Shown here: one piece after another, positions 3,433 through 31,598 of the stretch
How positions within the stretch are numbered: position 1 is the first letter of the stretch
How the letters are laid out: every line of letters starts with the position of its first letter
IMG/VR virus record: IMGVR_UViG_3300045999_010097
Span: 1-63,643 of that record
Direction: 5' to 3' (one strand)
DNA from: a virus
DNA: 63,643 nucleotides
The notes under the pieces: generated by a model
Told to the model about the DNA's origin: nothing
Database searches by the model: none
The model's input: the letters and a program-made list of their open reading frames with translations, nothing else
Translations under genes and position numbers: made by a program

Positions 3433-3968
3433 GCAGTTAATTCGTCCTTGAATTCTTGGTTGCCGTCGACTGAGATGGTCACTTCTTCGATGAGGTCGTA
3501 AGGGTCTTGGGGCGGCAGCCACTCATCGTCCGGTAGCGAGGCCAACCCTACCACCAACCAAGCTTCTCTGGGTAATGTTTTTTGTTGTTGGATTCCGTCT
3601 CGGGTCGCTTGTAGGGTCATGACCACTCGGTCGGGTCGTAGGTGGTCCCAGCAGCGACGTAGACGCCACAACATCCAAGGACTATCTTCGGTTGGACGTA
3701 AGAGTGACGGTTCGGCTAGAGAAGCCAGAACGGCTTCGGGGTCTTTTGACGACCGGATGATGTGGGCCAAGTCGTACCTACGCACGAACTCGGGGTACTT
3801 ATCGATAGACCAAACCGACATGCCGTCCAGTGTAACCGCTCGGTACGTCGCGTCTAGGGCGAGTACAGGTGACACCTGGTAGCGACTGCATAGTGTACCG
3901 GACACGACCCATGTGTAGTGGTCGCCGCGCCGCCCCGACCCCCCATAGGAAGGGGTCTTGTCTACCAT
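3366..3968 (-). CDS. Unknown protein upstream of the primase-helicase
   Basis: 200 residues, starting MVDKTPSYGG. It overlaps the start of the primase-helicase by 67 bases, so the two are probably co-transcribed. It has no recognisable motif; the composition is soluble, with several Trp and a basic C-terminus (RKPKRRATIQRV). A GGTAGACT box on the minus strand about 32 bases upstream of the ATG resembles the -10 boxes used elsewhere in this genome. The function may relate to replication by position, but that is inference. Confidence 0.65.
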   Translation of the reverse strand: MVDKTPSYGGSGRRGDHYTWVVSGTLCSRYQVSPVLALDATYRAVTLDGMSVWSIDKYPEFVRRYDLAHIIRSSKDPEAVLASLAEPSLLRPTEDSPWMLWRLRRCWDHLRPDRVVMTLQATRDGIQQQKTLPREAWLVVGLASLPDDEWLPPQDPYDLIEEVTISVDGNQEFKDELTAWVRKPKRRATIQRVLRWIPWA

Positions 3969-4017
3969 AGGTAGTGGGGCCTTGTGGCCTCAACCACTAA
4001 AGTCTACCGTTTTGACG

Positions 4018-4068
4018 GTTTCTTGCTCTATCTAATCTAATAGCAGACAGCTCTTTAGAGCAAGAAAC
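4018..4068. repeat. Inverted-repeat element in the divergent intergenic region (copy A)
   Basis: Perfect 13-bp arms, GTTTCTTGCTCTA (4018-4030) and TAGAGCAAGAAAC (4056-4068), flank TCTAATCTAAT. The right half also holds the small palindrome GCTCTTTAGAGC. The same parts, TGCTCTATCTAATCTAAT and GCTCTTTAGAGC, recur inside the large palindrome at 27.4 kb. It lies between divergent transcription units next to the primase gene, so an origin or a shared regulator site is possible. Confidence 0.75.
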
Positions 4069-4146
4069 TGCTTTTTGGGAAGAGAATTGTGGACGCTACT
4101 ATCCCACACACCATAGGTTGTGTGCATAGACCACCACATCTAGTGG

Positions 4147-4161
4147 TAGACTACGCGGGTG
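4147..4161 (+). promoter_or_regulatory. Leaderless promoter -10 box of the nuclease gene
   Basis: GTGGTAGACT places a TAGACT -10 box at 4147-4152, exactly six bases before the GTG start at 4159. There is no Shine-Dalgarno sequence in the gap, so the transcript probably starts at the start codon. The same arrangement recurs at 19569, 27205, 32995, 33199, 35755, 40936 and 48375. Confidence 0.6.
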
Positions 4162-5412
4162 ACACAATCCACCGCTGACGGAACCAATCTGGTTCCCATT
4201 TCTGCATCTCAACTCACCACGTTCGCAACCTGCCGCCGCCTATGGGCTTTTGAAAAGCTCGACGGGTTAGGACGTGCCGAGACCAACGCCATCAACGACG
4301 GGACGGCTATCCACAACGAAGTCGAGTTGTACTTCAAAGTCGGGACCGCTCCACAACGACCTGAGGCTCGTGCTCTGCTTGGTTTGTGTCCTCCCCGAGT
4401 CGACAGCCTCATCCCTGAAGCAGAATTCATCCTGGCATGGCCAGGTGAAGCCGCCCTACTACGTGGCCGGATTGACTTGGTAGACCCGGTAAACCACGTC
4501 GTGTACGACCACAAGACGACATCGAACATCGACCGCTACGCAAAAAGTGAAGAAGAACTTCGGCTCGATGCACAACCTATTGTGTATGGGCTAGCGTACC
4601 GAGCCGTGTTCCACAACACTCATGAAGTTGTGATGCAATGGAACTATGTCAAGCGAGAGCAACCCCGTAACCGACCACCCCAAACAAAAGCGGTACGCCT
4701 TACACAAGATCTGCGTATGTTGCAGGAAGGTCTTGAAAAATGGCAACCTGTCGTGGCGGATCTCGTTCAGATTTCTCGTCGTCGAGGCCGAGCACTTGAC
4801 GTCTTGCCTTCGCCAGGAGAAGCTTGCTTCAAGTACGGGGGTTGTCCTTACCGGGATGCGTGCCCAGACTACGCAGGCAACCAAAAGCAAAAGGAGGTCG
4901 TACCTGTGAACCCAGCAGTCCTAGCGAAACTAGCCGCCCTATCATCGTCCACCCCTGCTCCGCTGCCTGAACCGCGCTTCGAGCCAGAGGCAGCTTTGCC
5001 TCCAGAAGTTCGGCAGATCGCTCCAATTCCGACGGCTCCGGTCGCTCCGACCATGCCGCTGCTTGACTCTGTTCGAATTGCCCTCGACATCAAGCCTGAC
5101 GTTGTGCCACCAGACGCGCAACCAGATGTGTCGCCGATTGACCCACCCCCACCACCTGTAGTGGAAACTAAAAAAGGACGAGGTCGCCCTAAAAAGACGG
5201 CGACTGTGGTTGATGAACCGAGCGTGTCGACTACGGTTGACGAACCAACCACCTTCGCCTTCTCCTCGCCCCCCGCGTCAGACTTGACAACTTCCCGCGC
5301 CCTGATTCAATCCGTTATCGACCAGGCAGCTAACGGCACTCTTGACCAGCGCATCGAGGCGGCTAAGTTGGCGTTGCAGTTGATTCATCTTGACCTGGTA
5401 CTCAAAACTTGA
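4159..5412 (+). CDS. Cas4/RecB-like PD-(D/E)XK nuclease with C-terminal AT-hook tail
   Basis: 417 residues with GTG start. SASQLTTFATCRRLW near residue 17 is the N-terminal motif of the RecB-type exonuclease family. GRIDLVDPVNHVVYDHKTT at about 102-120 gives the D...DxK catalytic core. Cys in CRRLW plus CFKYGGCPYRDAC near 225-237 match the four-Cys iron-sulfur cluster of Cas4/AddB-type nucleases. The C-terminal third is Pro-rich and holds KKGRGRPKK, an AT-hook-like DNA-binding patch, followed by a short helical domain. It probably processes DNA ends during phage recombination and replication, next to the helicase and polymerase. Confidence 0.85.
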   Translation: MTQSTADGTNLVPISASQLTTFATCRRLWAFEKLDGLGRAETNAINDGTAIHNEVELYFKVGTAPQRPEARALLGLCPPRVDSLIPEAEFILAWPGEAALLRGRIDLVDPVNHVVYDHKTTSNIDRYAKSEEELRLDAQPIVYGLAYRAVFHNTHEVVMQWNYVKREQPRNRPPQTKAVRLTQDLRMLQEGLEKWQPVVADLVQISRRRGRALDVLPSPGEACFKYGGCPYRDACPDYAGNQKQKEVVPVNPAVLAKLAALSSSTPAPLPEPRFEPEAALPPEVRQIAPIPTAPVAPTMPLLDSVRIALDIKPDVVPPDAQPDVSPIDPPPPPVVETKKGRGRPKKTATVVDEPSVSTTVDEPTTFAFSSPPASDLTTSRALIQSVIDQAANGTLDQRIEAAKLALQLIHLDLVLKT

Positions 5413-5419
5413 GGTGTTC

Positions 5420-5500
5420 GTGCTTACCGAATATGTGTTCTTGTTGTGCTCCATGGGAGTAATCGCATTTAGCCTTGGATTGCTTATCGGGGACACCTGA
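5420..5500 (+). CDS. 26-residue single-pass membrane peptide
   Basis: GTG start with GAGGTG five bases upstream. The product, MLTEYVFLLCSMGVIAFSLG plus LLIGDT, is almost entirely one hydrophobic helix. Its TGA overlaps the ATG of the helicase gene (TGATG), so it could couple helicase translation. It may be a real micro-protein or a leader; the evidence is reading frame, ribosome site and overlap only. Confidence 0.45.
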   Translation: MLTEYVFLLCSMGVIAFSLGLLIGDT

Positions 5501-7263
5501 TGCAAGTATTCAACGACCCAGAGTTCGACCGCGTATTTGCTCTGCCTAAAAGAAATCCTCCATCTTCTGAGGAACTACAGCAACTCAGCGGTGTCCTGAC
5601 TCAGGCGTTGAAACAACCAACAGGTAGTCAAAAGCTCAAGCCCATTCAGGCTTGGGCTTTAGCCGAGGCGAGCCAAGGTCGCCTCGTAGGGCTTATCGGT
5701 GCCGGTGGTGGCAAGACGCTGACATCGGCGCTACTTCAGCGAGTATTGAAGTCGAAGCGAGTGTTGTTGCTGCAACCCGCTGCCCTGCGTCAGAAGACGC
5801 TCGATGACTTTGCCGCATTGCGCCATCATTGGGTCTTTCCAGCGGCTTGTTTGGCTGATGCTGTGTCAAACGTAGCCCCAGGCGATCCGATCATTCGAAT
5901 CCTGTCTTATGAGTCTCTTTCCACCGTCAACTACGCCACATACATCGAAGAATTCGATCCAGACCTGATTATCGCTGATGAAGCCCATTTTCTTCAGACG
6001 ATGAAATCAGGGCGGTCACGGCGAGTGTTTCGCTTCATAAAGAACAAGCGTAAACGAGGTGGTAAAGTAACCTACGTACCCCTAACCGGCACTGGTTGGG
6101 ACCGTTCTTTGAAGCAAATCGCGCACCAATTAGAGGCGGCTCTTGAGGAGTGGTCACCTCTACCTCGCGATTGGCTTTGCATGGAGCAACTCTCTCAAGC
6201 AATCGACCGCAACGTCCGCGAGGACATGAGGCTACAACCCGGTGCGCTCTTACGTTTGTGTCCCGAGAAAAGCGACCCGTCAATCGACGAGGTCCGCCGT
6301 GCGGTTCGTGATCGAATTGTCAACACGCCTTTCATTGTTACTTCGAAGGAAGTATCCTGCGGGCTCCCGCTTGTTCTTAGACGAAGAGACATAACCGTCC
6401 CCCCTGAAGTTCGCGCAGCAATGGATTCGCTGCGTAAGGACTACGTGTTGCCGTCTGGCGATTCGGTTGAAGCGGGCGTGACATTCTGGAATCACGCTCG
6501 CGAAATCGCCAACGGATTCGCGTATTACATGGACCCGCCACCTCCCCCGGCTTGGCGGCAAGCTAAATCTGCCTGGAACTCTTTCGTGAGAGGAAAGATT
6601 GAGTCGCACGGCAGCGTGCGGTACGACACTCCCCTTCAAGTATGGAACGCAACAGAAGTCGGTACTTTTGGGACAGTGCCCCAGTTCGATGCGTGGAAGG
6701 CTATCAAAGATTCTTTTGTTCCGGTCACTAAGCCTTTTTGGATCTCCGATTACTTGGTTCGAGACGCCGAAGAATGGTCTTTGGCGACAAGCGGTATCGT
6801 GTGGGTGTCCCACTCGACGGCGTACACCGAAGAACCGGACGACGACCGGATCGGTGGTATGTTCACGAAGATTCCGTACTTTGGCGCGGGCGACGAACGA
6901 ATCAAGTCCTACAAAGGCCCCTGTGCGGCATCGGTTCGCGCTCACGGCACGGGTAAGAATCTGCAACAGTGGGATGAAGCTCTGATTATGGGTTTTCCGT
7001 CTGGAGGTAAGACTGTCGAGCAACTTTTGGCTCGGCTGCATCGCGACGGACAAAAATCAGACATCGTGACCTTTCATTTCTACGCCCATTCGCTAGAGAA
7101 CCTCAACGCCATCGAAAAAGTGTTGGGCGATGCGGACTACATCCAAAGTACGTCAGGAGCCGACCAACGTGTGTTGGCGGCCCATTGGCTCGAACCAGAC
7201 GGTCACGCATTCGTGGTAGAAGACTACCGGAGATCACGCCCCACAGATCCGATGTGGGGTTGA
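5500..7263 (+). CDS. Superfamily 2 DEAH-type DNA helicase
   Basis: 587 residues. Motifs in order: Q-like KPIQAWAL (about 47-54), Walker A GAGGGKT (about 67-73), DEAH in IIADEAHF (about 153-156), motif III-like PLTGTG (about 192), and QLLARLHRDGQ near 510 as motif VI. This is the phage SF2 helicase pattern seen beside DNA polymerase genes. It probably remodels forks or supports recombination with the upstream nuclease. The start overlaps the upstream micro-ORF stop. Confidence 0.85.
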   Translation: MQVFNDPEFDRVFALPKRNPPSSEELQQLSGVLTQALKQPTGSQKLKPIQAWALAEASQGRLVGLIGAGGGKTLTSALLQRVLKSKRVLLLQPAALRQKTLDDFAALRHHWVFPAACLADAVSNVAPGDPIIRILSYESLSTVNYATYIEEFDPDLIIADEAHFLQTMKSGRSRRVFRFIKNKRKRGGKVTYVPLTGTGWDRSLKQIAHQLEAALEEWSPLPRDWLCMEQLSQAIDRNVREDMRLQPGALLRLCPEKSDPSIDEVRRAVRDRIVNTPFIVTSKEVSCGLPLVLRRRDITVPPEVRAAMDSLRKDYVLPSGDSVEAGVTFWNHAREIANGFAYYMDPPPPPAWRQAKSAWNSFVRGKIESHGSVRYDTPLQVWNATEVGTFGTVPQFDAWKAIKDSFVPVTKPFWISDYLVRDAEEWSLATSGIVWVSHSTAYTEEPDDDRIGGMFTKIPYFGAGDERIKSYKGPCAASVRAHGTGKNLQQWDEALIMGFPSGGKTVEQLLARLHRDGQKSDIVTFHFYAHSLENLNAIEKVLGDADYIQSTSGADQRVLAAHWLEPDGHAFVVEDYRRSRPTDPMWG

Positions 7264-8000: not shown

Positions 8001-8083
8001 GGCCGGATGGCGGAATTGGTAGACGCACTGGATTTAGATTCCAGCGGTAAACCGTGAGGGTTCGAGTCCCTCTTCGGCCACCA
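8001..8083 (+). tRNA. tRNA-Leu (UAG), CCA encoded
   Basis: Acceptor GGCCGGA pairs with TTCGGCC, followed by A and encoded CCA. The D-arm reads TGGCGGAATTGGTAGACGC, typical of tRNA-Leu. The anticodon stem CTGGA/TCCAG holds loop TTTAGAT with anticodon TAG. A long variable arm and the T-loop TTCGAGT are present. It likely supplements decoding of CUA/CUG leucine codons in late genes. Confidence 0.93.
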
Positions 8084-8086
8084 TAT

Positions 8087-8174
8087 GTGGTGTAGGCTAC
8101 TGTTGGTTGGTAGCACGAGACTGTAACTCTCCGACCTTCGGGTCACGGTGGTTCGATTCCATCACACCACACCA
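8087..8174 (+). tRNA. tRNA-Tyr (GUA), CCA encoded
   Basis: Acceptor GTGGTGT pairs with ACACCAC, then A and CCA. D-stem GCTAC/GTAGC. Anticodon loop CTGTAAC gives GTA on stem GAGA/TCTC, with a C-C mismatch at the base. The long variable arm GACC-TTCG-GGTC is the class II arm expected of bacterial tRNA-Tyr. The T-arm GGTGG/CCATC carries loop TTCGATT. It lies three bases after tRNA-Leu, so the two are one transcript. Confidence 0.93.
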
Positions 8175-8330
8175 AGCAGGGTGAAGCTAGAAACTAATGG
8201 TACGACGCAGGTTTATCTGAACAGACCGGTCTGCTTAGGATGAATACCACGTCGGTCGCGGCGAAACACCAAGGCCCCTGCGCCAAATTGACCCCTAGAC
8301 GTAGCCCCAGATCGGGGCTACGTTACTTTC
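8175..8330 (+). other. Non-coding stretch after the tRNAs with palindrome and hairpin
   Basis: No plausible gene. It holds the 12-bp palindrome CAGACCGGTCTG (8222-8233), a possible long-range stem CGCAGG (8206-8211) with CCTGCG (8277-8282), and the hairpin listed separately at 8299-8323. The enclosed 77 bases have tRNA-like length but no T-loop or anticodon stem. Confidence 0.5.
8299..8323 (+). terminator. Strong hairpin, likely terminator or attenuator
   Basis: Ten-bp perfect stem ACGTAGCCCC (8299-8308) and GGGGCTACGT (8314-8323) with a five-base loop, followed by TACTTTC. It sits eight bases before the next start codon, so it may end the tRNA transcript or attenuate the polymerase operon. 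Confidence 0.6.
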
Positions 8331-13474: not shown

Positions 13475-14242
13475 ATGGACATCGTAATTCCGGCCTATGG
13501 CAACCTCGACATTACTTCTCGTGCTTTTTTCGGGTGCGCCCTGAACGCCCCCAAAGGAGCAAAAATCACGTTGGTTGACAACGGTTCTGGCGACGTCCTC
13601 ACCCCACTGAAGCCGGTTGTTGAGTCGCTGGGACATCGGTTTCTGAAGATCGAGGTCAACGTCGGCCCCTACGGGGCTGTGAATGCCGGTCTGGCTGAAG
13701 GTAACCACGACGTGGTGGCTGTTGTGTGCAACGACGTCGTTCCACTCCCATACGCTCTAGATCGTTTGCGCTCAGGTCTTGAGCGGTTTTCTATTGTTGG
13801 TGCTGTTGAACTACAGACATCACCGTACTGCACGGACGACTTGATCCTCGAAGCCGAAAACAAAGGGCTCTACAACCAGGAGAAGTTCACTCCTGGCGTG
13901 TTCTTCTCTTGTTTCGTCACCACCCGAGCAGTTTTTTCTAAGGTCGGGATGTTCGACAGCCGTTTCAAGCTGACCTTCGGTGACACTGACTGGGAACAAC
14001 GAGCAGCAGACGCCGGTTGTGCCTACATGCGGGCCAATCACGCCCCTGTGTTTCATGGGTCGTCAGTCACCCGCAAACGACTCGGTTTGGATGCTGACAT
14101 GCGTGTCGACACCGCTGACCACAAGGTGTTCTTGGAGAAGTGGCAGCATCGCCCCGACGTCGTAGCCAAACACCCCCTCGAAAACCCCGACTTCAAGAGA
14201 GCGTTTGTTAAGAACGAGTGGTCCTATCGGGGAGAAACATGA
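13475..14242 (+). CDS. Glycosyltransferase family 2 (GT-A)
   Basis: 255 residues with AAGGA before the ATG. MDIVIPAYGN, ITLVDNGSGD and NVGPYGAVNAGLAEG are the nucleotide-sugar binding strands of GT2 enzymes; VVCNDVVPLP stands where the DxD metal motif lies, as NDD-like. FGDTDWEQRAADAG near 167-180 fits the acceptor-site ED/ExxW region. It opens a four-gene sugar/nucleotide cluster and overlaps the next gene by four bases. The target may be phage DNA, virion proteins or the host surface. Confidence 0.85.
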   Translation: MDIVIPAYGNLDITSRAFFGCALNAPKGAKITLVDNGSGDVLTPLKPVVESLGHRFLKIEVNVGPYGAVNAGLAEGNHDVVAVVCNDVVPLPYALDRLRSGLERFSIVGAVELQTSPYCTDDLILEAENKGLYNQEKFTPGVFFSCFVTTRAVFSKVGMFDSRFKLTFGDTDWEQRAADAGCAYMRANHAPVFHGSSVTRKRLGLDADMRVDTADHKVFLEKWQHRPDVVAKHPLENPDFKRAFVKNEWSYRGET

Positions 14243-15521: not shown

Positions 15522-16295
15522 ATGGCCAAGCAGAAGAAGGTCTTGATCGTCAGCGATATTCATTTTCCCAACCACGATCCCAAAGCTGTGGTCACGTTCC
15601 TGACGTTCCTGCGTCACTTCAAACCCCACAAAGTCATCCTGAATGGTGACATCCACGACTTCAAGGGCCTGTCCAAACACGACGACGCCGCGACGAACAT
15701 GTCTCGCGTGCAGTCAGAAACCACGATGGTGGCCGATTTCCTCGATGGCATCCGCCGCGAAGGCACACGGGGTATGGAGATCGATCTCCACGAAGGTAAC
15801 CACGACCAGCGTCTGACGACCTACGTCGCGCATCGAGCGCCTCACCTTGATGGGCTCATGTCTCTGCCGAGCCTGCTTGACCTTAAAAGGCGTCGTGTTA
15901 GTTGGATGAACTATTCGGCGGACAATGTCAACTTCATTAGCCCAAAGCTCGGTGTCACACATGGCACACTCCACGGTACAAACTACGCCCGCGACTACCT
16001 CTACAAGTACGGTGTGTCCTTGATCGTGGGTCACGCGCATCGACCGCAGTATGCATCTGTCCCCGTCGTCTCCCGCGACGGGCAACACACCAGGGCCTGT
16101 TGGGGACTTGGCTGCCTTGTTCCTGTTCAGCACGTCTCCTTCCCCCGTCATCCATCGGGCTGGACTCAGGGCTGGGGGATTGCCCTCATCGATGAGCGGG
16201 ACGGGGACTTTGATGTCCATCAGATCAACCTGACCCGAGGTCGGGTGCGCTGGGTTGATGGTAAGACTTACGGTCCGAACGGAAAGGTAGGTTGA
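15522..16295 (+). CDS. Calcineurin-like metallophosphoesterase
   Basis: 257 residues. All metal motifs are present: SDIHFPN (12-18), NGDIHDF (about 46), EGNHDQR (about 94), GVTHGTLHG and VGHAHRP (near 170). Such phage enzymes act on nucleotides or RNA ends; the substrate here cannot be told. It follows the sugar cluster directly after a TAA stop. Confidence 0.85.
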   Translation: MAKQKKVLIVSDIHFPNHDPKAVVTFLTFLRHFKPHKVILNGDIHDFKGLSKHDDAATNMSRVQSETTMVADFLDGIRREGTRGMEIDLHEGNHDQRLTTYVAHRAPHLDGLMSLPSLLDLKRRRVSWMNYSADNVNFISPKLGVTHGTLHGTNYARDYLYKYGVSLIVGHAHRPQYASVPVVSRDGQHTRACWGLGCLVPVQHVSFPRHPSGWTQGWGIALIDERDGDFDVHQINLTRGRVRWVDGKTYGPNGKVG

Positions 16296-21480: not shown

Positions 21481-21789
21481 CGTGTTTTTGACGGTGCGCA
21501 AGGCCCGGTTTTCGGCATCGCCCACGGCATCGCCCACGGCATCGGTTAGTGTGCGGTTTGACACTGTGCCAACGTACACACTGGGCGAAACCACACTAGG
21601 GCGAAAACGCACACTACGGATCGGGCAGTGGTTGGATCGTGCGGCATATTGCCGCGTGATCTCCCGATCGGGCCTAAGTGTGTAGATCTCCACAGATCTG
21701 TCGTCGCACGAACAAAACACTTGACGCGATCGCGATCGTGCTTCATGCTCGCGCCACAATCGACAACCCGCACACTAGGAGCCGCTCGA

Positions 21790-22221
21790 ATGCCTATCTT
21801 CATCGCCGTCATCCTCGCACCGATCGCCACTATCCTTGCCGTCGTCGCTGCTATGTCTCCGATCGCCTATGCCGTCGCCGTCGGCATCGTTGGCGTTGCC
21901 TTGTTCGCTACGTCGTCGTCGTCGCCCACGGCCTATCTTACCGATACGGGTCCGATCGTCGACTCCGTCGCTACACCGATCGGTGTAGCGGCCGTCCGAG
22001 CCGACCGCGTCGTCCGCGTCGGGGGACTGTCGGTTCGCATTGCGGCGCCGGTTTGGGCCGACGCGGACGACGTGGCGATCGCCCGATCGGCGTTGTTGCG
22101 CGAGTTGGCTCACCTGGAATCGTGCATCGAAAACGCGCGCCGATCGCGGCATCGCACGCGGTGCTCGCAATATCTCGGCCGCTATGCGGCGGTATCTGCC
22201 CGATTGGACGCTTTGCAATGA
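21790..22221 (+). CDS. Membrane-anchored small protein of the amidoligase cassette
   Basis: 143 residues from ATG 21790, with CTAGGAGCC upstream. Residues 2-46 form two hydrophobic segments (MPIFIAVILAPIATILAVVA and AYAVAVGIVGVALFAT), followed by a soluble Arg/Asp-rich part ending in a helix (RSALLRELAHLESCIENARR). It shares the CACACTAGGAGC leader with the next gene, so the three genes form one unit. It may anchor the modification system at the membrane; no family recognised. Confidence 0.65.
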   Translation: MPIFIAVILAPIATILAVVAAMSPIAYAVAVGIVGVALFATSSSSPTAYLTDTGPIVDSVATPIGVAAVRADRVVRVGGLSVRIAAPVWADADDVAIARSALLRELAHLESCIENARRSRHRTRCSQYLGRYAAVSARLDALQ

Positions 22222-22231
22222 CACCGATTGA

Positions 22232-22259
22232 CCCTAACCCCTAACCCCTAACCCCTAAC
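22232..22259. repeat. Telomere-like CCCTAAC heptamer repeat
   Basis: Four perfect tandem copies of CCCTAAC, continued by CC, between two genes of the island. The complementary strand has five runs of three or four G separated by TTA, so a G-quadruplex can form just upstream of the amidoligase ribosome site. Confidence 0.9.
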
Positions 22260-22283
22260 CCGTACACACTAGGAGCCAATACC

Positions 22284-23993
22284 ATGCCTACCGACACCGA
22301 TACGACCGACACCGATACCGCCGACACCGCTACCGCTACCGCCGACACCGCTACCGCTACCGCCGACACCGCTACCGCTACCGCTACCGCTACCGCTATC
22401 CCGACGACGCCGCGTGTCAATCGGAAAGTGTGCCAAAAATGCGGCGCAGAATGCGAGCGTCGATTTTGGGTTCACACATCCGCCGACAATCACTCACACC
22501 GTGAACTCTGGTGCTCGTCGTGTCTCGCATCGGACGCGATCGCGTGCTCTCACGCCTATCCGTCACAGCGATGGGCTCGCAGTGTGAGTGTGCGGGCCGC
22601 GTCCGGTGGCACGGCATCCCCCCGTGCGATCGCGGCGTGTGGTTGGGTGCCTTGTCGCGGATGCGGTGCATACCATTATCCATATGACGCGATCGTGGCG
22701 CTCAGCGCCGACGATGTAGTGCATGACGCGTGTGATGGATGTGTCGATTGCTACGTGCCTCGGACGTATCGCGTGCCCGTGGGGTTGCCTCACGGTGGCA
22801 TCGTCCAGGCCGATCGGCGTCATCCGATGATCCGATCGGTCCGGACCGCTAGCGGGGGCACGTCGCAATGGCGATACGACCCGATCGTCCGATCGTGCCC
22901 CGGATGTGGCGCCGAGTGGCTCGCAGCGGCTTGCTGGGCGACGTCGTGGCGTCCATTGCCGCTAGACTCCGACGACGTGACCCACGGACCTCGTGAGGTC
23001 GCGGTCTGCCCGGCGTGTCATACGAATGCGACGGCGGGTGACGGAGGCGATCCGATCCTGGGGTACGGGTCGTCCTTTGGACGCGTGCATCCGATCGGTT
23101 CCGTCGATGGTAAATTGACGCAACGTGGAACGGATCCGAAACGCGCTAAGGCCGATCGCGGTTATACCGTGCCGCTGTTGTTTGGCGTAGAAGTGGAAAT
23201 TGCGTGCCCTGATTCCACGCCTACACCTGAGCACGTGAACAGACACGCTAGGTTGTCGCTTGGCACGGTATATGCTGAGGGGAAACGTGACTCAAGCATC
23301 GCACCGCGTGGTGTGGAAATCGTGACGCATCCGGCGACGATCGGCGCGCATCGTATCGCGTGGGGCAATTGGCGCCCACCGGTGGGCGCCGTCGCGAATG
23401 AGTCTTGTGGCTTGCACGTACACATCTCCCGATCGGCGTTGACAACCGGGCAGATCGATCGGCTTGCCTACTTGCTCTCACGGCGTCACGACCTTAGTCG
23501 ATGGTCCACCATTTTCCGTCGACAACCGAATAGCTACGCCAAAGCCATGCCCGTCGGTTCGTTTCCGCGTCGACGATGGAAAGACGTGGCGTCGGACCGG
23601 TACCACGTGCTCAATTTGGCCGGACGTGAGACGATAGAGATCCGATGGCCGCGCGGGACGGTTCGCGGTGACGTCATTTTAGCAACAATCGAATTAATGC
23701 ACATTATGTGCCACTATGTAGCGGCGGGGAATCCGGGGGGGTCGCATACATCGTCGGCGTTGTGTCTGGACGCGCTGTTGCGTTGGATCACGACGTCGCC
23801 GTGGGCGAGGTCGGAGACCCGAACATTGCGACCGTATCTGGTAAGCCGTGGCATTTTGCCGCAAGAAAAGAACGCCAAACCGACAACTTCCGCCGTCGAC
23901 GACGGCACTGAAGCGCACGGGACGACGGGCCCGCTACTCGGGTCACGATCGGGCTGGTCGGCGTTGCGGGATGCTCTCGCTGATACACACTGA
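22284..23993 (+). CDS. Zinc-ribbon amidoligase
   Basis: 569 residues after CTAGGAGCC. Residues 1-40 are a Thr/Asp/Ala low-complexity tail encoded by ACCGCTACC-type repeats. Then come several CxxC pairs (CQKCGAEC, WCSSC, PCRGCGAYH, RSCPGCGAEW, VCPACH), probably three or four zinc ribbons. From about 295 the amidoligase fold appears: LFGVEVEIACP, DSSIAPRGVEIVTHP, NESCGLHVHIS, RYHVLNLAGRETIEIRWPRG. These match the glutamine-synthetase-like amidoligases of viruses and bacteria, which join an amine to a carboxylate with ATP. Substrate unknown; a protein or peptide tag is likely. The partner amidotransferase is next. Confidence 0.8.
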   Translation: MPTDTDTTDTDTADTATATADTATATADTATATATATAIPTTPRVNRKVCQKCGAECERRFWVHTSADNHSHRELWCSSCLASDAIACSHAYPSQRWARSVSVRAASGGTASPRAIAACGWVPCRGCGAYHYPYDAIVALSADDVVHDACDGCVDCYVPRTYRVPVGLPHGGIVQADRRHPMIRSVRTASGGTSQWRYDPIVRSCPGCGAEWLAAACWATSWRPLPLDSDDVTHGPREVAVCPACHTNATAGDGGDPILGYGSSFGRVHPIGSVDGKLTQRGTDPKRAKADRGYTVPLLFGVEVEIACPDSTPTPEHVNRHARLSLGTVYAEGKRDSSIAPRGVEIVTHPATIGAHRIAWGNWRPPVGAVANESCGLHVHISRSALTTGQIDRLAYLLSRRHDLSRWSTIFRRQPNSYAKAMPVGSFPRRRWKDVASDRYHVLNLAGRETIEIRWPRGTVRGDVILATIELMHIMCHYVAAGNPGGSHTSSALCLDALLRWITTSPWARSETRTLRPYLVSRGILPQEKNAKPTTSAVDDGTEAHGTTGPLLGSRSGWSALRDALADTH

Positions 23994-24023
23994 CCCCACA
24001 CAACCACGATAGGAGCGGAACCA

Positions 24024-24935
24024 ATGTGCCTCATTGTTGACCAACACAAAAACACACCGCTAACCGATGAAGAATTGCGATCGGTATACCGTAAGAATTC
24101 CGACGGCATGGGGGCTGTGTACACTGAACGCGGCCGCTTGAAGGCATGGCGATATGTGCCGAAAAATGCCGACGACGCGATCGCGGCGTACCGCGTCACG
24201 CTGGACCGGGCAGACGATCGCGTCGTCTGGCACTGGCGCTTCGCAACACACGGCGTGGTGTCCGTGGCGATGTCGCACCCTTTCGGGTTGCCGTTTGGGG
24301 CTTATCTTCTACATAACGGCGTCCTAGGGGCCTGGGGGAATCGTGCCGCGTCGGGTGAATCGGACACGGCTTGCCTAGCGCGACATATTGCCGCAATCGC
24401 GACGCACGCGAGCACATATGACGATCCTAGGTTTCGGGCATGGTTGGCGCGGGAAGTGCAAGGGTCCGCTGTCTTAATCGTGCGACGATCGCCCGATGAC
24501 GGGCGAATGGTGGTCGACCGATACGGTAACGAGGGGATCCACCATGCCGATCGTTGGCTGAGCAATACCTATGCCGGACCGTCGAGTCTGTATCCTCCTC
24601 CGGTCTGGACGCCGCGCCAATGGTCCCCCCCGTCGTCGGGGCTGCGCCTTGACAGGCCGGGTATACCATGGGGCCCCGGTACCGTGGCTGAGCTTGCGTC
24701 GACGATCGCGGCAACAGGGTGGCATGGTAAATGGGCCCTGGAGTCGGATGACGTCGACGTGGTGAGGTGGGGTATCGGCGAATGGTGCTCCGAGCAATCC
24801 GCCGATGGTCTAACCGTCGCTGTACGCGAATGCCACGGCGGACGGGTCATGCTAACCGTATCGGGCGATGCTTGGGTCGCTTGGGTCAATCGTCGTCGCC
24901 AGCTTGCCCGATCGTCTTGGGCTTGGGGGGATTGA
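24024..24935 (+). CDS. Class II glutamine amidotransferase (Ntn hydrolase)
   Basis: 303 residues with ATAGGAGCGG before ATG. The start MCLIVDQH exposes Cys2 as N-terminal nucleophile once Met is removed. SDGMGAVY, VWHWRFATHGVVS and SHPFGLPFGAYLLHNGVL are the oxyanion and substrate strands of class II amidotransferases. It would release ammonia from glutamine and pass it to the amidoligase. The C-terminal 100 residues are less conserved-looking. A terminator follows at 24973. Confidence 0.8.
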   Translation: MCLIVDQHKNTPLTDEELRSVYRKNSDGMGAVYTERGRLKAWRYVPKNADDAIAAYRVTLDRADDRVVWHWRFATHGVVSVAMSHPFGLPFGAYLLHNGVLGAWGNRAASGESDTACLARHIAAIATHASTYDDPRFRAWLAREVQGSAVLIVRRSPDDGRMVVDRYGNEGIHHADRWLSNTYAGPSSLYPPPVWTPRQWSPPSSGLRLDRPGIPWGPGTVAELASTIAATGWHGKWALESDDVDVVRWGIGEWCSEQSADGLTVAVRECHGGRVMLTVSGDAWVAWVNRRRQLARSSWAWGD

Positions 24936-24972
24936 CCGAGGTCGACCGAAACTAGGTCGACCTAGACTTAGA

Positions 24973-24999
24973 CCGGACCCATAAGGGTCCGGTTTTTTT
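24973..24999 (+). terminator. Rho-independent terminator ending the amidoligase cassette
   Basis: CCGGACCC (24973-24980), loop ATAA, GGGTCCGG (24985-24992), then seven T. Classic form. Confidence 0.9.
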
Positions 25000-25101
25000 G
25001 TGTGGTATGATATGGTTGCAAATTCCATGCCAATAGCAATAATCGTGCCACGATCAAACAGGGCCGCTATAACGGCATTATGTCCGCTATAACAGACACA
25101 C

Positions 25102-25353
25102 ACGGCGCGGCATTATGCCGCACCGATCGGGCATTGACACGGTCCTGTGGTCTTGGTAGGATCGCGGTCGAGGCGACTAGGCTCCGATCTAGATCGGTTC
25201 CAATCGGAACGGCACCATCGGATCCGCTACAACGGTCGGCCCCGTACCGTATCGCGTTGACATAATGCGGTTTAAATCGGGGGATGACCCTCCGATGCCA
25301 AACCGATCGGATCCGATCGGTTTGGAATTGCTACGGCGCGGCATTATGCCGCA
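25102..25353. repeat. Two identical copies of a palindromic 21-mer
   Basis: ACGGCGCGGCATTATGCCGC plus A occurs at 25102-25122 and 25333-25353, each holding the perfect inverted repeat GCGGCATTATGCCGC. Separation is 231 bp (about 22 helical turns). Confidence 0.8.
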
Positions 25354-27650: not shown

Positions 27651-28595
27651 CTAGATGAGTAAGGAATCCCAACCCAATAGAGCCGCCGTGGCCGTTCGCC
27701 AGGACGGGATGTGGTCGGCTGTCACACCTTGCATCGTAGCCTGACCGGACAGGACCGCCAACAGGCCCTCCTCAAAAGACGAGGACGTGAACCGATAGCC
27801 ATGGCGAACGGTCGTGGCCAACCCACCGGACGGGACGACGATCGGAGTACATCCCGCTGCTTGAGCCTCGGCAGCCGCCAATGAGAACAACTCGCGACCT
27901 ACACCGGGATGCACCCAAAAATCAGATTCCGCCAACAAATCCCGAACTTGTTGGTCGCTGGTCGCCCGATCGCCATAAGTTCCGGTTACCAACCGATAGC
28001 CGGTTTCCTGTTCGATGTCGCAACGGTCCCACAACGCCTGTAGCTTCGCCAGACCGCGATCCGGACTGGATGTGAATGCCACCTGCCGTTTCCGGATTTT
28101 ATTGCTTGTAGGCGAATACAGTGCGTGGTCGATCCCGTGAGGGACGACTCTTGCTCCTAGATTTGGCGGCATCAGGTTCTTAGCCGCAGACGAGATAACA
28201 ACCAGATCATCCGTGATTACGTCAACTGAATCCAACCAGTCGAAGTAGTAGTCCGGATGGTCGAAGAAGAAATTCGTCCAGATGCGAACCGATCCGGTGT
28301 GTCCCACAATATCCAGATTGGACCGAGGATTCATCAACCAGACCTCGGCGGCATCCGGACAGGACCGGTCGTGTTGGCTGCGGTTCTTGTAAACAACTCG
28401 ATTCACTTCTCTAGTGGGACCGTCGTAGACCACGACGACTTCTCGACCCAACGAAGTCGCTTCCTCTGCCGTCCGCACATAGAAGCGGTCCGTGCCGCGA
28501 ATCGGACAGGACGGGTCCCAACGGAAATGCGGCGGCAATTCCTCGGTAATGAAGTACGTGATGGTCGACGAGATTTCTTTGTTGAGGCGAGTCAC
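27651..28595 (-). CDS. Glycosyltransferase, GT-B type
   Basis: 314 residues from GTG 28595, which has AGGAGG five bases upstream; the ATG at 28613 would add six residues that contain that ribosome site. ARVVPHGIDHALYSP, VAFTSSPDRGLAKL and HPGVGRELFSLAAAEAQAAGCTPIV are the nucleotide-sugar binding end of GT4-like enzymes (the last holds the E-x7-E-like motif). The N-terminal domain is short. It is next to the larger GT fusion, so both may build one glycan. Confidence 0.75.
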   Translation of the reverse strand: MTRLNKEISSTITYFITEELPPHFRWDPSCPIRGTDRFYVRTAEEATSLGREVVVVYDGPTREVNRVVYKNRSQHDRSCPDAAEVWLMNPRSNLDIVGHTGSVRIWTNFFFDHPDYYFDWLDSVDVITDDLVVISSAAKNLMPPNLGARVVPHGIDHALYSPTSNKIRKRQVAFTSSPDRGLAKLQALWDRCDIEQETGYRLVTGTYGDRATSDQQVRDLLAESDFWVHPGVGRELFSLAAAEAQAAGCTPIVVPSGGLATTVRHGYRFTSSSFEEGLLAVLSGQATMQGVTADHIPSWRTATAALLGWDSLLI

Positions 28596-28614
28596 AACTT
28601 CCTCCTGACCCATC

Positions 28615-28974: not shown

Positions 28975-31284
28975 TCAAGCACCTGTCGGTTTCTTGGGCA
29001 AGACGGTCCAGACCTCCGAGAACCGTTTAGCCACCTCAAGCCAGTCGAACTTCGCGACCGCATCCTTGGCCAGACGAAGCCTGTCTTCGGACGACATCGG
29101 GTTTTGAATGGCTGCGATAAGGGCATCCGCGTAGTTGACTGCCTCAGGTACGAAAGTAGCGTCCGGCGCGACTTCCGGAAGGGCACCGTTCGGAGCGGTC
29201 AAAACGTGACACCCGATCGCGGTTGCCTTTACAGCCGAGATACAAAATGTCTCAACATCGGTGCTCTCGTAATGCGAATAGGCCCACACGTTCGCGTCCG
29301 ACATGGCTTCGTATAGCTCTTGATGGCCAACTCCACCGTGATGATGGACGTCAAGATGCCGAACTGCCTCATAATGAGACATAACATCTTGATAAACAGC
29401 CGGTTGGAATCGTTGCAACATGGACCAATCGTAGTAGATATCCAGATAGGCGTCTGGACAGGCTTGTTTCACTTTGGGCCAAGCCTTCAGCAACGTTCGA
29501 AGACCACGAGACGGACACGACGTGTACACAATCTTGTTTGCTTTTTTAGGCAACGAAGCCATCAGCGGCGTCGGGTCCGCAGCTTCACCAAAACCGAAGT
29601 CTTTTCCAACGATTCCGTTCGCCAACTTGACGAATTTCACATTGTGTTCGGACGGTAAACTCCGTTCGATGCACTTTTGGTGATGGTCCGACAAGACAAT
29701 GACGCTCGAAACACCTTTCAAAATGGCGTTTGCAGTGCGCGGATCGGACACACCAACAGACATATCGTGCAGCCAAAAGGAAGAATTTCCGATTCCAGCG
29801 GGGGCAAAAGCAGCCTCGTCACCTTCCTTTTTTGCCTTCAAACGGCGAATTTGAGTCTCAATTAGGTGCTTGACAAGCCCAGTCGCACGCCAAATGACCA
29901 ATACACCGTGCTCATCATCGACGTCGAAATCCTTGAAGTCTCGCCACTCGACTCCCCAAGGATCAATCCCTCCCAGAGAAGTTGGGGGCAGGATTCCATA
30001 GACGCGGACGTTACGTCCTAGTTGCGCCAAGGCCCGCGTCAAGTAAACAACAGCCTCCTCGGAACCGCCCAACATCGTATTGGTGGATGACCAGTCGAAC
30101 GGTTGTGGTGTATGCGGCACCAAAATCGTGATGCGGTCGATGTGCTTACGAATGGACATGACGGCATCGCCGACCGCTTTATGCGTTCGCAGATCGCCCC
30201 GCACGGAATTAATCACCTTTTCGATACCACCTGCGGGATAATCCAGATGAGCGGCGGCATCAGCCATGCAAATCGGAGCAAAAACCTTTTCAAACAGAAA
30301 CCCCTCATGTGTGGTTTGTTGTCCCGCAACCGACGACTTGGTCGCGGCTTCAATACACTTGACCCATTCGCCCATGGCGTGATACACAATAGCCTCATAG
30401 GCAGGGCCAGCCAATTTCGCATACTTCAAAGCGGAGTGTAGGTTGCCGTCGTTCGCTTCGAGTCGACTAAGGTCCGAATAGGCGTGACGTCCCTCAGGTA
30501 GAGTCGGATACGTGTCTCCAACCTCTTTGAGGTAGGGTCGACACTCGGCAAACTTACCGTCCAACTTCAATTCCATTGCAATCGTGCGAGCGAGGCGGGC
30601 CTTATATTCTTTATCCGTAGTGGTCTCGTAGTCCCTACGAGCAATAACGGCATTACGTCGCAATGCCCGATCCTTATCCTCTTCGGATTTTCGTCGATGC
30701 TTCACACAAAGAGTGTCTTTGTTCTCAATATTGGCGAGAGCGTTATTCGGCAATGGTTTATTGGACACAAGACGTTCATGAATGGCGTCGGTCCAATTCC
30801 AATGACTACCCCACTTCAACAAGCGGAGCGTAGGTAGCTCCTCCAGAACGTCGTAATCGTAGGAGATGAACAAGCCCTCGACGTAAGGGTGTTCCTTCTC
30901 AGTTTTTTCAATCAAAGATCGGAGGTTATGACCACCGACGAGAACGTCATCCGTATCGAGGAAGAAGCGCCACTTGCCGGTGGCGGCCTTGAAGTTTGCG
31001 TTGCGCGCCTTAGCAAAGTCATCACACCAAGCGAAGTCGGTCAGTACGAATGCCTTTCCTCGCTCGCGGACAAGCTCACCGAACGATTCTAGGATCTTAC
31101 GAGTGTCGTCTTTACAACCGGTATCGGTAAAGACGAACTCGTCGAAATGGTCGACAACGGACTCTAGCAACGGACGGATTGTGTCCTGGTTATCTCGGAA
31201 GATCACACACAACGACAGAAACGGTTTTGGTGCTCGGGCAGTAAGATCTTTCAAGGGGCGAGTAATAGGCCGGATCGGTTTCAC
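28975..31284 (-). CDS. Two-domain glycosyltransferase (GT-A/TPR/GT-B fusion)
   Basis: 769 residues from GTG 31284 (AGGAGA upstream; four-base overlap with the previous gene). Residues about 20-240 are a GT2 domain: FLSLCVIFRDNQ, DEFVFTDTGCKDDT, FFLDTDDVLV (DxD). About 250-400 looks like TPR helices (KEYKARLARTIAMELKLDG...). About 410-769 is a GT4 domain: NTMLGGSEEAVVYLTRALAQ, NGIVGKDF, YTSCPSRGLRTLLKAWP, VWAYSHYESTDVETFCISAV. Two transferase activities in one chain suggest building a di- or oligosaccharide, on virions or DNA. Confidence 0.85.
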   Translation of the reverse strand: MKPIRPITRPLKDLTARAPKPFLSLCVIFRDNQDTIRPLLESVVDHFDEFVFTDTGCKDDTRKILESFGELVRERGKAFVLTDFAWCDDFAKARNANFKAATGKWRFFLDTDDVLVGGHNLRSLIEKTEKEHPYVEGLFISYDYDVLEELPTLRLLKWGSHWNWTDAIHERLVSNKPLPNNALANIENKDTLCVKHRRKSEEDKDRALRRNAVIARRDYETTTDKEYKARLARTIAMELKLDGKFAECRPYLKEVGDTYPTLPEGRHAYSDLSRLEANDGNLHSALKYAKLAGPAYEAIVYHAMGEWVKCIEAATKSSVAGQQTTHEGFLFEKVFAPICMADAAAHLDYPAGGIEKVINSVRGDLRTHKAVGDAVMSIRKHIDRITILVPHTPQPFDWSSTNTMLGGSEEAVVYLTRALAQLGRNVRVYGILPPTSLGGIDPWGVEWRDFKDFDVDDEHGVLVIWRATGLVKHLIETQIRRLKAKKEGDEAAFAPAGIGNSSFWLHDMSVGVSDPRTANAILKGVSSVIVLSDHHQKCIERSLPSEHNVKFVKLANGIVGKDFGFGEAADPTPLMASLPKKANKIVYTSCPSRGLRTLLKAWPKVKQACPDAYLDIYYDWSMLQRFQPAVYQDVMSHYEAVRHLDVHHHGGVGHQELYEAMSDANVWAYSHYESTDVETFCISAVKATAIGCHVLTAPNGALPEVAPDATFVPEAVNYADALIAAIQNPMSSEDRLRLAKDAVAKFDWLEVAKRFSEVWTVLPKKPTGA

Positions 31285-31598
31285 TTGTCGTTCTCCTGTT
31301 GCTCGGGGGAGGTTATCACGGACGTGGCGATGGTGAGTGTCATATTGACACCCGCGTCGGGCGGACACCGGTCGAAAGCGGCCATGAGGCAGTCGCCCAT
31401 GCGAGCAACGTGACTCAAGAAATCAGGGGATTTCTTCCCAAGATCCCGTTGTATAAGACCCGACAGTGGGGTTTGCTCAGGGAGCAGAGTACCGTCAGCT
31501 TGGATGATCACGACGCGCCGGTTACCTAGAGCAATTCCAACGCCGACGAAATCGTCGTCAGCATTGACATACAAGATAACCTCTCCACGATTAGTCAT
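31281..31598 (-). CDS. Unknown 105-residue protein
   Basis: ATG 31598 with AAAGGAACC. Sequence MTNRGEVILYVNADDDFVGV then ALGNRRVVIIQADGTLLPEQ, and AAFDRCPPDAGVNMTLTIAT near the end. GC-rich segment begins here. A C-terminus of the same flavour (AAFDTVPGDE) survives out of frame at about 61.66 kb. Function unknown. Confidence 0.6.
   Translation of the reverse strand: MTNRGEVILYVNADDDFVGVGIALGNRRVVIIQADGTLLPEQTPLSGLIQRDLGKKSPDFLSHVARMGDCLMAAFDRCPPDAGVNMTLTIATSVITSPEQQENDK

Follow-up and report, generated by a model that had tools for sequence, protein, structure and literature searches.

The three adjacent genes at positions 21790-24935 of the virus record IMGVR_UViG_3300045999_010097 raise the question of which reaction a phage would carry out with an amidoligase, a glutamine amidotransferase, and a small membrane protein, and on which substrate. 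The record was analyzed at its full length of 63,643 nucleotides, which is referred to as the window. An earlier note on this DNA had described a three-gene cassette in which a membrane protein (gene 1), an amidoligase (gene 2), and a class II glutamine amidotransferase (GATase; gene 3) share similar TAGGAGC leaders and one terminator. The open reading frames (ORFs), the leaders, and the single terminator were confirmed, and the coordinates of the cassette proved exact. Conserved residues and predicted folds make a paired amide-forming chemistry of genes 2 and 3 highly probable. For the cassette as a whole, a membrane-associated, glutamine-dependent amide-forming enzyme that acts on an envelope peptide is proposed as a tentative model, to which we assign somewhat less than an even chance.

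The amidoligase

Gene 2 matches the Pfam family Amidoligase_2 (PF12224) with an E-value of 1.6e-7 and 31.9 bits (curated cut-off 22), and the same family is matched by all 22 aligned amidoligase relatives. It also matches the PHROG families 16683 and 2443, one of which is named amidoligase. In the AlphaFold model of gene 2, which has a mean pLDDT of 64.5, the core is better predicted than the rest, with a confidence of mostly 74-96 per 10-residue block and lower values at residues 421-440. The best Foldseek matches of this model in the Protein Data Bank (PDB) belong only to the glutamine synthetase (GS) superfamily and comprise GS, GmaS, YbdK, Dop, and PafA. Their TM-scores are low, probably because the zinc fingers (see below) and the N-terminal tail are poorly modeled, and the fold call is therefore based on E-values, probability, and the agreement among all matches. 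The residues G301, E303, E305, D336, S338, G343, E345, C375, G376, H378, H380, R413, T450, E452, and R454 are invariant across the 22 relatives, and the ExE, HxH, and ExR residues of the GS-like fold are present as E303/E305, H378/H380, and E452/R454. The family match, the fold, and the invariant catalytic residues thus bear out the earlier designation of gene 2 as an amidoligase.

Six CxxC pairs (C50/53, C77/80, C124/127, C150/153, C205/208, and C242/245) lie before the core, a pattern that is compatible with three predicted zinc-ribbon or LIM-like fingers. The Pfam family LIM is matched by 7 of the 22 sampled amidoligase relatives; for the amidoligase of the window, a Pfam search returned no finger family despite the six CxxC pairs. 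The fusion of such fingers to an amidoligase had been regarded as unusual, which does not hold, since most of the relatives found carry it.

The class II glutamine amidotransferase

Gene 3 starts with Met-Cys, and the residues Cys2, H70-x-R72, T75, H97-N98-G99, and T115 are kept in 18 relatives, with R72, N98, and G99 invariant. The protein is too divergent to be recognized alone: a Pfam search with the window GATase stayed under the reporting threshold, and PHROGs and NCBIfam returned weak matches only. Among its aligned relatives, 14 of 18 match GATase_4, and the GATase family profile matches GlmS with 3.4e-13. The model of gene 3 matches GlmS, EgtC, and PurF and consists of an Ntn domain (residues 1-185, mostly above 88 in confidence) and a poorly predicted C-terminal part (residues 186-303). 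With its signature residues intact, gene 3 is a predicted class II GATase, and the family profile, the model, and the conserved residues agree with the earlier reading of a Cys2 enzyme. Of the checks that the earlier note had proposed, the profile search matched both enzyme families, in the case of the GATase via its relatives, and structure prediction of the monomers yielded putative amidoligase and GATase folds that are matched in the PDB.

The cassette in a sister phage and in other genomes

A counterpart of the cassette is found in the sister phage IMGVR_UViG_3300036398_002960, the terminase of which is 86% identical to that of the window. Here, a trio of genes (2322-2738, 2790-4499, and 4533-5597 of the sister locus L029) occupies the same locus in the same order, and a T-run hairpin lies 3' of it. 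The sister amidoligase carries ATETP repeats of its own. Identities between window and sister are 30, 46, and 48% for genes 1, 2, and 3, respectively, compared to 76-91% for many core neighbors, and the cassette genes have a dN of ~0.46-0.59 compared to 0.085-0.18 for many core neighbors. Four-fold sites are saturated in all window/sister gene pairs (0.52-0.81), and rates therefore cannot separate fast evolution from replacement; an attempt to date a cassette swap from synonymous sites fails for the same reason. A second variable locus is a gene for a calcineurin-like phosphoesterase at 15522-16295 of the window, which is 44% identical to its sister counterpart and has a divergence like that of the cassette genes. 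In the gap between genes 1 and 2 of the window, a CCCTAAC heptamer-type repeat is found at 22231-22261, and the same gap in the sister phage contains ACACC repeats.

Scans of viral contigs with the single amidoligase or GATase protein as query gave no match, and a diverse alignment of nine sequences contained no segment conserved enough for a scan query. With a three-phage alignment as amidoligase query, 188 confirmed bacterial loci and 11 viral loci were found; the best 80 of the 188 bacterial loci belong mostly to Oscillospiraceae and include one clear member of the Bacteroidota. The 97 fetched amidoligase loci that were examined include four re-fetched or identical copies. A GATase is present in 94 of them, and one of the three loci lacking it is cut by a contig end. 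Conversely, a scan with the GATase only, which is blind to the amidoligase, found seven viral loci including the sister, and in all seven an amidoligase lies directly 5'. Gene order is kept in the 95 amidoligase-GATase pairs recovered elsewhere, and the GATase starts with MC in 103 of 105 pairs. The neighbor survey by which the earlier note had meant to challenge the cassette thus found its genes linked in relatives, both as the sister trio and as pairs.

Amidoligase and GATase distances correlate with r = 0.94 (permutation maximum 0.21). The two enzymes are therefore inherited together, which is not proof of contact, as shared ancestry alone would suffice. Of the 82 enzyme pairs from genomes, 78 have at least four CxxC before the amidoligase core, as do 9 of the 23 pairs from phages or viruses; these frequencies are biased upward because similarity to queries with fingers had decided the ranking of the loci retained. 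The pair is found in phages and, in gut Bacillota, next to genes of the relaxase and integrase type.

The membrane protein and other small partners

The hydropathy of gene 1 exceeds 1.6 for all averaging frames starting at residues 1 to 26 and peaks at 2.84. This is consistent with two predicted transmembrane segments within about residues 1-44, followed by an Arg-rich soluble C-terminal part, and with the small membrane protein that the earlier note had recognized. Profile searches with gene 1 matched no family. Its positional counterpart in the sister phage also has a hydrophobic N-terminus, and position, length, and topology are kept between the two proteins. In another locus, L035, a gene for a 50-aa hydrophobic peptide overlaps or abuts the amidoligase start, resulting in the order membrane peptide, amidoligase, GATase, and terminator-like hairpin. 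The membrane partner had also been considered unusual. It is indeed rarer, being found in the window, in the sister phage, and as the shorter peptide in L035 and L036, which represent one further phage lineage, and thus does not generally accompany the pair. In 47 bacterial loci, a soluble protein of ~94 aa is encoded 5' of the amidoligase with resolvase-, relaxase-, or integrase-like genes close by. As the small partners differ between lineages, the membrane partner is lineage-specific. The ~94-aa gene, the enzyme pair, and the mobility genes (loci L041-L117) possibly form an undescribed mobile-element module.

Relation to known systems

The pairing of an amidoligase with a class II GATase is known, as the earlier note had stated, and has been published for phiEco32, RIO-1, LUZ24-like, and Marvin phages, so that the phage context is not unusual. 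It is described for the phiEco32/RIO-1/LUZ24-type cassette (PMC5498523), including phage UFV-P2 (PMC3890496). Papers citing Iyer 2009 refer to a peptidoglycan-modification cassette of phiEco32-type phages. It has been proposed, as a hypothesis, that cassettes of the phiEco32 and RIO-1 type alter cell-wall peptides against superinfection (PMC5498523, PMC3890496). The window cassette resembles these systems in combining Amidoligase_2 and a class II GATase within a single cluster of early genes in a tailed phage, and the same proposal of surface modification can be made for it. In contrast to the phiEco32 and RIO-1 cassettes, it includes a membrane gene, and its amidoligase belongs to a distant branch. 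In a tree of amidoligase cores, which has long branches and unsure deep placements, the proteins of the window, the sister, and the locus L033 are grouped (support 100/99) far from those of phiEco32 and UFV-P2.

The systems also differ in the position of their cysteine motifs, which are found at the N-terminus of the amidoligase in the window and at the C-terminus of the GATase in phiEco32 and UFV-P2 (GATase genes at 4494-6524 and 4085-5545 of the respective loci L132 and L130), the amidoligases of which have no CxxC region. In Marvin and in L037/L038, both enzymes carry CxxC. The zinc module may thus be part of the working complex, as is suggested by the shift of the fingers between the partners. 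The window cassette shares the central step with the phiEco32/RIO-1 cassette but is not filed as one, because gamma-glutamyl cyclotransferase (GGCT) and a RimK-type ATP-grasp ligase were tested for and not found. The amidoligase of the window rather represents a finger-rich branch without detected ATP-grasp or cyclotransferase partners, which is new here, as is the CGATCG island described below.

The cassette is similar to gp105-gp106 of Marvinvirus (Mycobacterium phage Marvin), where a Cys-rich amidoligase is followed by a class II GATase and preceded by a small gene. This small protein, gp104, has no clear transmembrane segment, both Marvin enzymes carry CxxC, and identity is low. The OM43 phages MEP401 and MEP402 encode an amidoligase and a GATase (PMC10580990), which adjoin each other as in the window; they have two CxxC only, no membrane gene was seen, and the small 5' gene is a different one. 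The Oscillospiraceae mobile elements (L040-L117) have the same two-gene order, usually with six CxxC pairs before the core, and a Cys2 GATase; they differ in having the soluble ~94-aa 5' gene and resolvase-, relaxase-, or integrase-like neighbors instead of phage genes and a transmembrane protein.

In bacteria, MurT/GatD combines a ligase with a glutamine amidotransferase and amidates cell-wall peptides (PMC3267633). It serves as a working analogy for the pair of the window, which is not a member of that system. The ligase of that system has an unrelated fold, and its amidotransferase is of class I. A label as a known anti-phage defense system was rejected, as PADLOC had no matching model for any of the three cassette proteins.

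Proposed function and alternatives

Class II amidotransferases free ammonia from glutamine, and GS-like ligases use ATP to join ammonia or an amine to a carboxylate. In the proposed mechanism, the GATase would release ammonia from glutamine via its N-terminal Cys, and the amidoligase would activate, at the expense of ATP, a carboxylate of a peptide, from which an amide is formed with ammonia or an amine. The zinc fingers could dock this peptide or keep the complex assembled, and the product of gene 1, with its two predicted transmembrane segments, would carry the complex to the inner membrane, a recruitment for which we see an even chance. The likeliest target would be an envelope peptide in the form of peptidoglycan or a lipid-linked precursor, and the altered surface would block entry or lysis by competing phages or conjugating elements. 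An exclusion function fits because phages and conjugation-type elements both gain from keeping others out, and a role in phage-host or phage-phage conflict, as raised in the earlier note, is plausible and agrees with published speculation. Finger docking, membrane recruitment, and target are all inferred; an envelope target with a role in exclusion is put at slightly below even.

Several observations weigh against this model. Searches of the record, which is possibly incomplete, for the partners that hint at peptidoglycan chemistry in the phiEco32/RIO-1 cassettes found neither GGCT (PF06094; control positive in 9 genomes) nor a RimK-like ATP-grasp protein (PF08443; control positive in 13 genomes), and a search for the COOH-NH2 ligase family PF14395 was also without match in the record, with no control genome positive either. 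The zinc-finger region of the gene 2 model has low confidence. Gene 1 and its sister counterpart are weakly similar (30% identity, BLAST not significant), most amidoligase-GATase relatives lack the membrane gene, and the literature searched contained no biochemical test of any family member. In a broader version, which we regard as doubtful, the finger-rich pair with its interchangeable small partners would be a distinct, undescribed exclusion or conflict module of phages and of elements that are conjugative or mobilizable. Location or target would depend on the small partner, and entire cassettes would be exchanged between elements, as the CGATCG island suggests.

The first alternative, rather unlikely in our view, is that the pair modifies proteins of the host or the virion, amidating or aminoacylating carboxylates in their side chains or at their C-terminus, and that the zinc fingers recognize these proteins. 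PafA and Dop, both among the fold neighbors of gene 2, have the same fold and act on proteins, and LIM-like fingers, as matched in some of the relatives, are protein-binding modules. The fold of gene 2, however, is no closer to PafA and Dop than to GS or YbdK, and no conserved small substrate protein adjoins the pair across phages. Less likely again is a module that yields a diffusible product, namely a small amidated metabolite or peptide, or that inhibits a host defense or another cytosolic process, and leaves the surface unaltered. The occurrence of the pair in phages, in a genome of the Bacteroidota, and in many mobile elements of Bacillota would fit such a function, and the soluble ~94-aa protein could be a substrate or regulator, but its gene is absent from the window, where the membrane protein takes its place. 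Furthermore, the recurrent neighbors included no gene for a transporter or a peptidase, and PADLOC gave no match.

That the pair serves nucleotide metabolism or modifies DNA bases is improbable. In this case, it would amidate a carboxylated base or nucleotide while the fingers bind DNA, for which the position of the cassette 3' of ThyX-like and ribonucleotide reductase genes and the presence of glycosyltransferases and a Dam methylase in the window could be cited; however, no dedicated enzyme (hydroxylase, base kinase, or preQ0 pathway) is found among the annotated ORFs of the window, and the module also occurs in non-phage mobile elements, the DNA of which is not expected to be modified. That the genes are chance ORF neighbors or decaying genes with no joint function, as their very fast divergence might indicate, has a negligible probability given three frames open in two phages, invariant catalytic residues, and an order kept in about 95 pairs.

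The CGATCG island

The cassette lies within an island of CGATCG sites, of which only 31 are found in the other 60 kb of the window. First-order Markov simulations of the island region gave a mean of 5.1 and a maximum of 10 sites, compared to the 33 observed. With synonymous codon shuffling, the observed number exceeds the maximum in the amidoligase (13 versus 9), the GATase (7 versus 6), and gene 1 (7 versus 6), and six further sites are intergenic. GGATCC and GGGCCC, which are near-absent in the rest of the window, are likewise strongly enriched in the island. An interpretation as the cyanobacterial HIP1 signature was rejected, since the bases flanking CGATCG vary (C_G 10, G_C 5, and others), and a lineage-wide property was rejected as well, since there is no CGATCG in the sister cassette. 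A comparison of the cassette DNA with the phage collection returned no match. Because the island is sharp and the sister cassette is devoid of sites, we infer from these sequence patterns that the cassette was swapped in, probably in a recent exchange at this locus, with another genome as its source. CTCGAG palindromes are apparently very frequent in the flanks of L035 (e.g., 5500-5560 and 8030-8270), a possible parallel to the island.

Gene layout and setting

Matches to genes for terminase, portal, protease, capsid, and tape-measure proteins identify the window (63.6 kb) as a tailed-phage record. Matches of its terminase across unrelated hosts reach at most ~37% identity and do not support a host assignment. 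The cassette is preceded by genes for DNA polymerase A, a ThyX-like protein, and ribonucleotide reductase. Judged by its operon anatomy, it is a single transcription unit: TAGGAGC occurs five times on the + strand, and three of these copies are the cassette leaders (Table 1). The longer leader word ACACTAGGAGC has two exact copies only, at the gene 1 leader and at 22266. The window further contains an adjacent tRNA pair, Leu(tag) and Tyr(gta), at 8001-8174, as well as genes for glycosyltransferases at 28975-31368 (-), 27651-28613 (-), and 13475-14242 (+), one of which is large and has two domains; surface or DNA glycosylation is possible for these. A Dam methylase is also encoded.

Table 1. 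Features of the cassette and its surroundings (positions in the window)
Feature	Position	Strand	Basis
Gene 1, small membrane protein, 143 aa	21790-22221	+	ORF; hydropathy
Gene 2, amidoligase, 569 aa	22284-23993	+	ORF; PF12224; PHROG 16683 and 2443; GS-superfamily fold match
Gene 3, class II glutamine amidotransferase, 303 aa	24024-24935	+	ORF; conserved residues; model and PDB match
TAGGAGC leader of gene 1, Shine-Dalgarno-like	21776-21782	+	sequence
TAGGAGC leader of gene 2	22270-22276	+	sequence
TAGGAGC leader of gene 3	24010-24016	+	sequence
N-terminal amidoligase tail of low complexity (Thr/Ala/Asp)	22288-22397	+	12-21-nt repeats (D1, D2)
Cys-rich amidoligase region (residues 50-245) with six CxxC pairs	22431-23018	+	sequence
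GS-like catalytic core, residues 300-456 (FGVEVE, DSS, GVEI, CGLHVH, RR, TIEIR)	23181-23651	+	invariant alignment columns
Strong intrinsic terminator, 11-bp stem and T run	24970-24995	+	hairpin 3' of gene 3
CGATCG island, 33 sites, including intergenic flanks	21665-25319	.	8.8/kb versus 0.52/kb elsewhere in the window

Implications

Amidoligase/GATase pairs recur in many phages and in gut mobile elements, and no paper with a demonstrated substrate was found. The CGATCG island may serve as a marker of recent cassette exchange. If the branch represented by the window amidates envelope peptides, it would constitute a chemical superinfection- or entry-exclusion system that phages share with other mobile DNA, and it would also be a source of new amide-forming biocatalysts.

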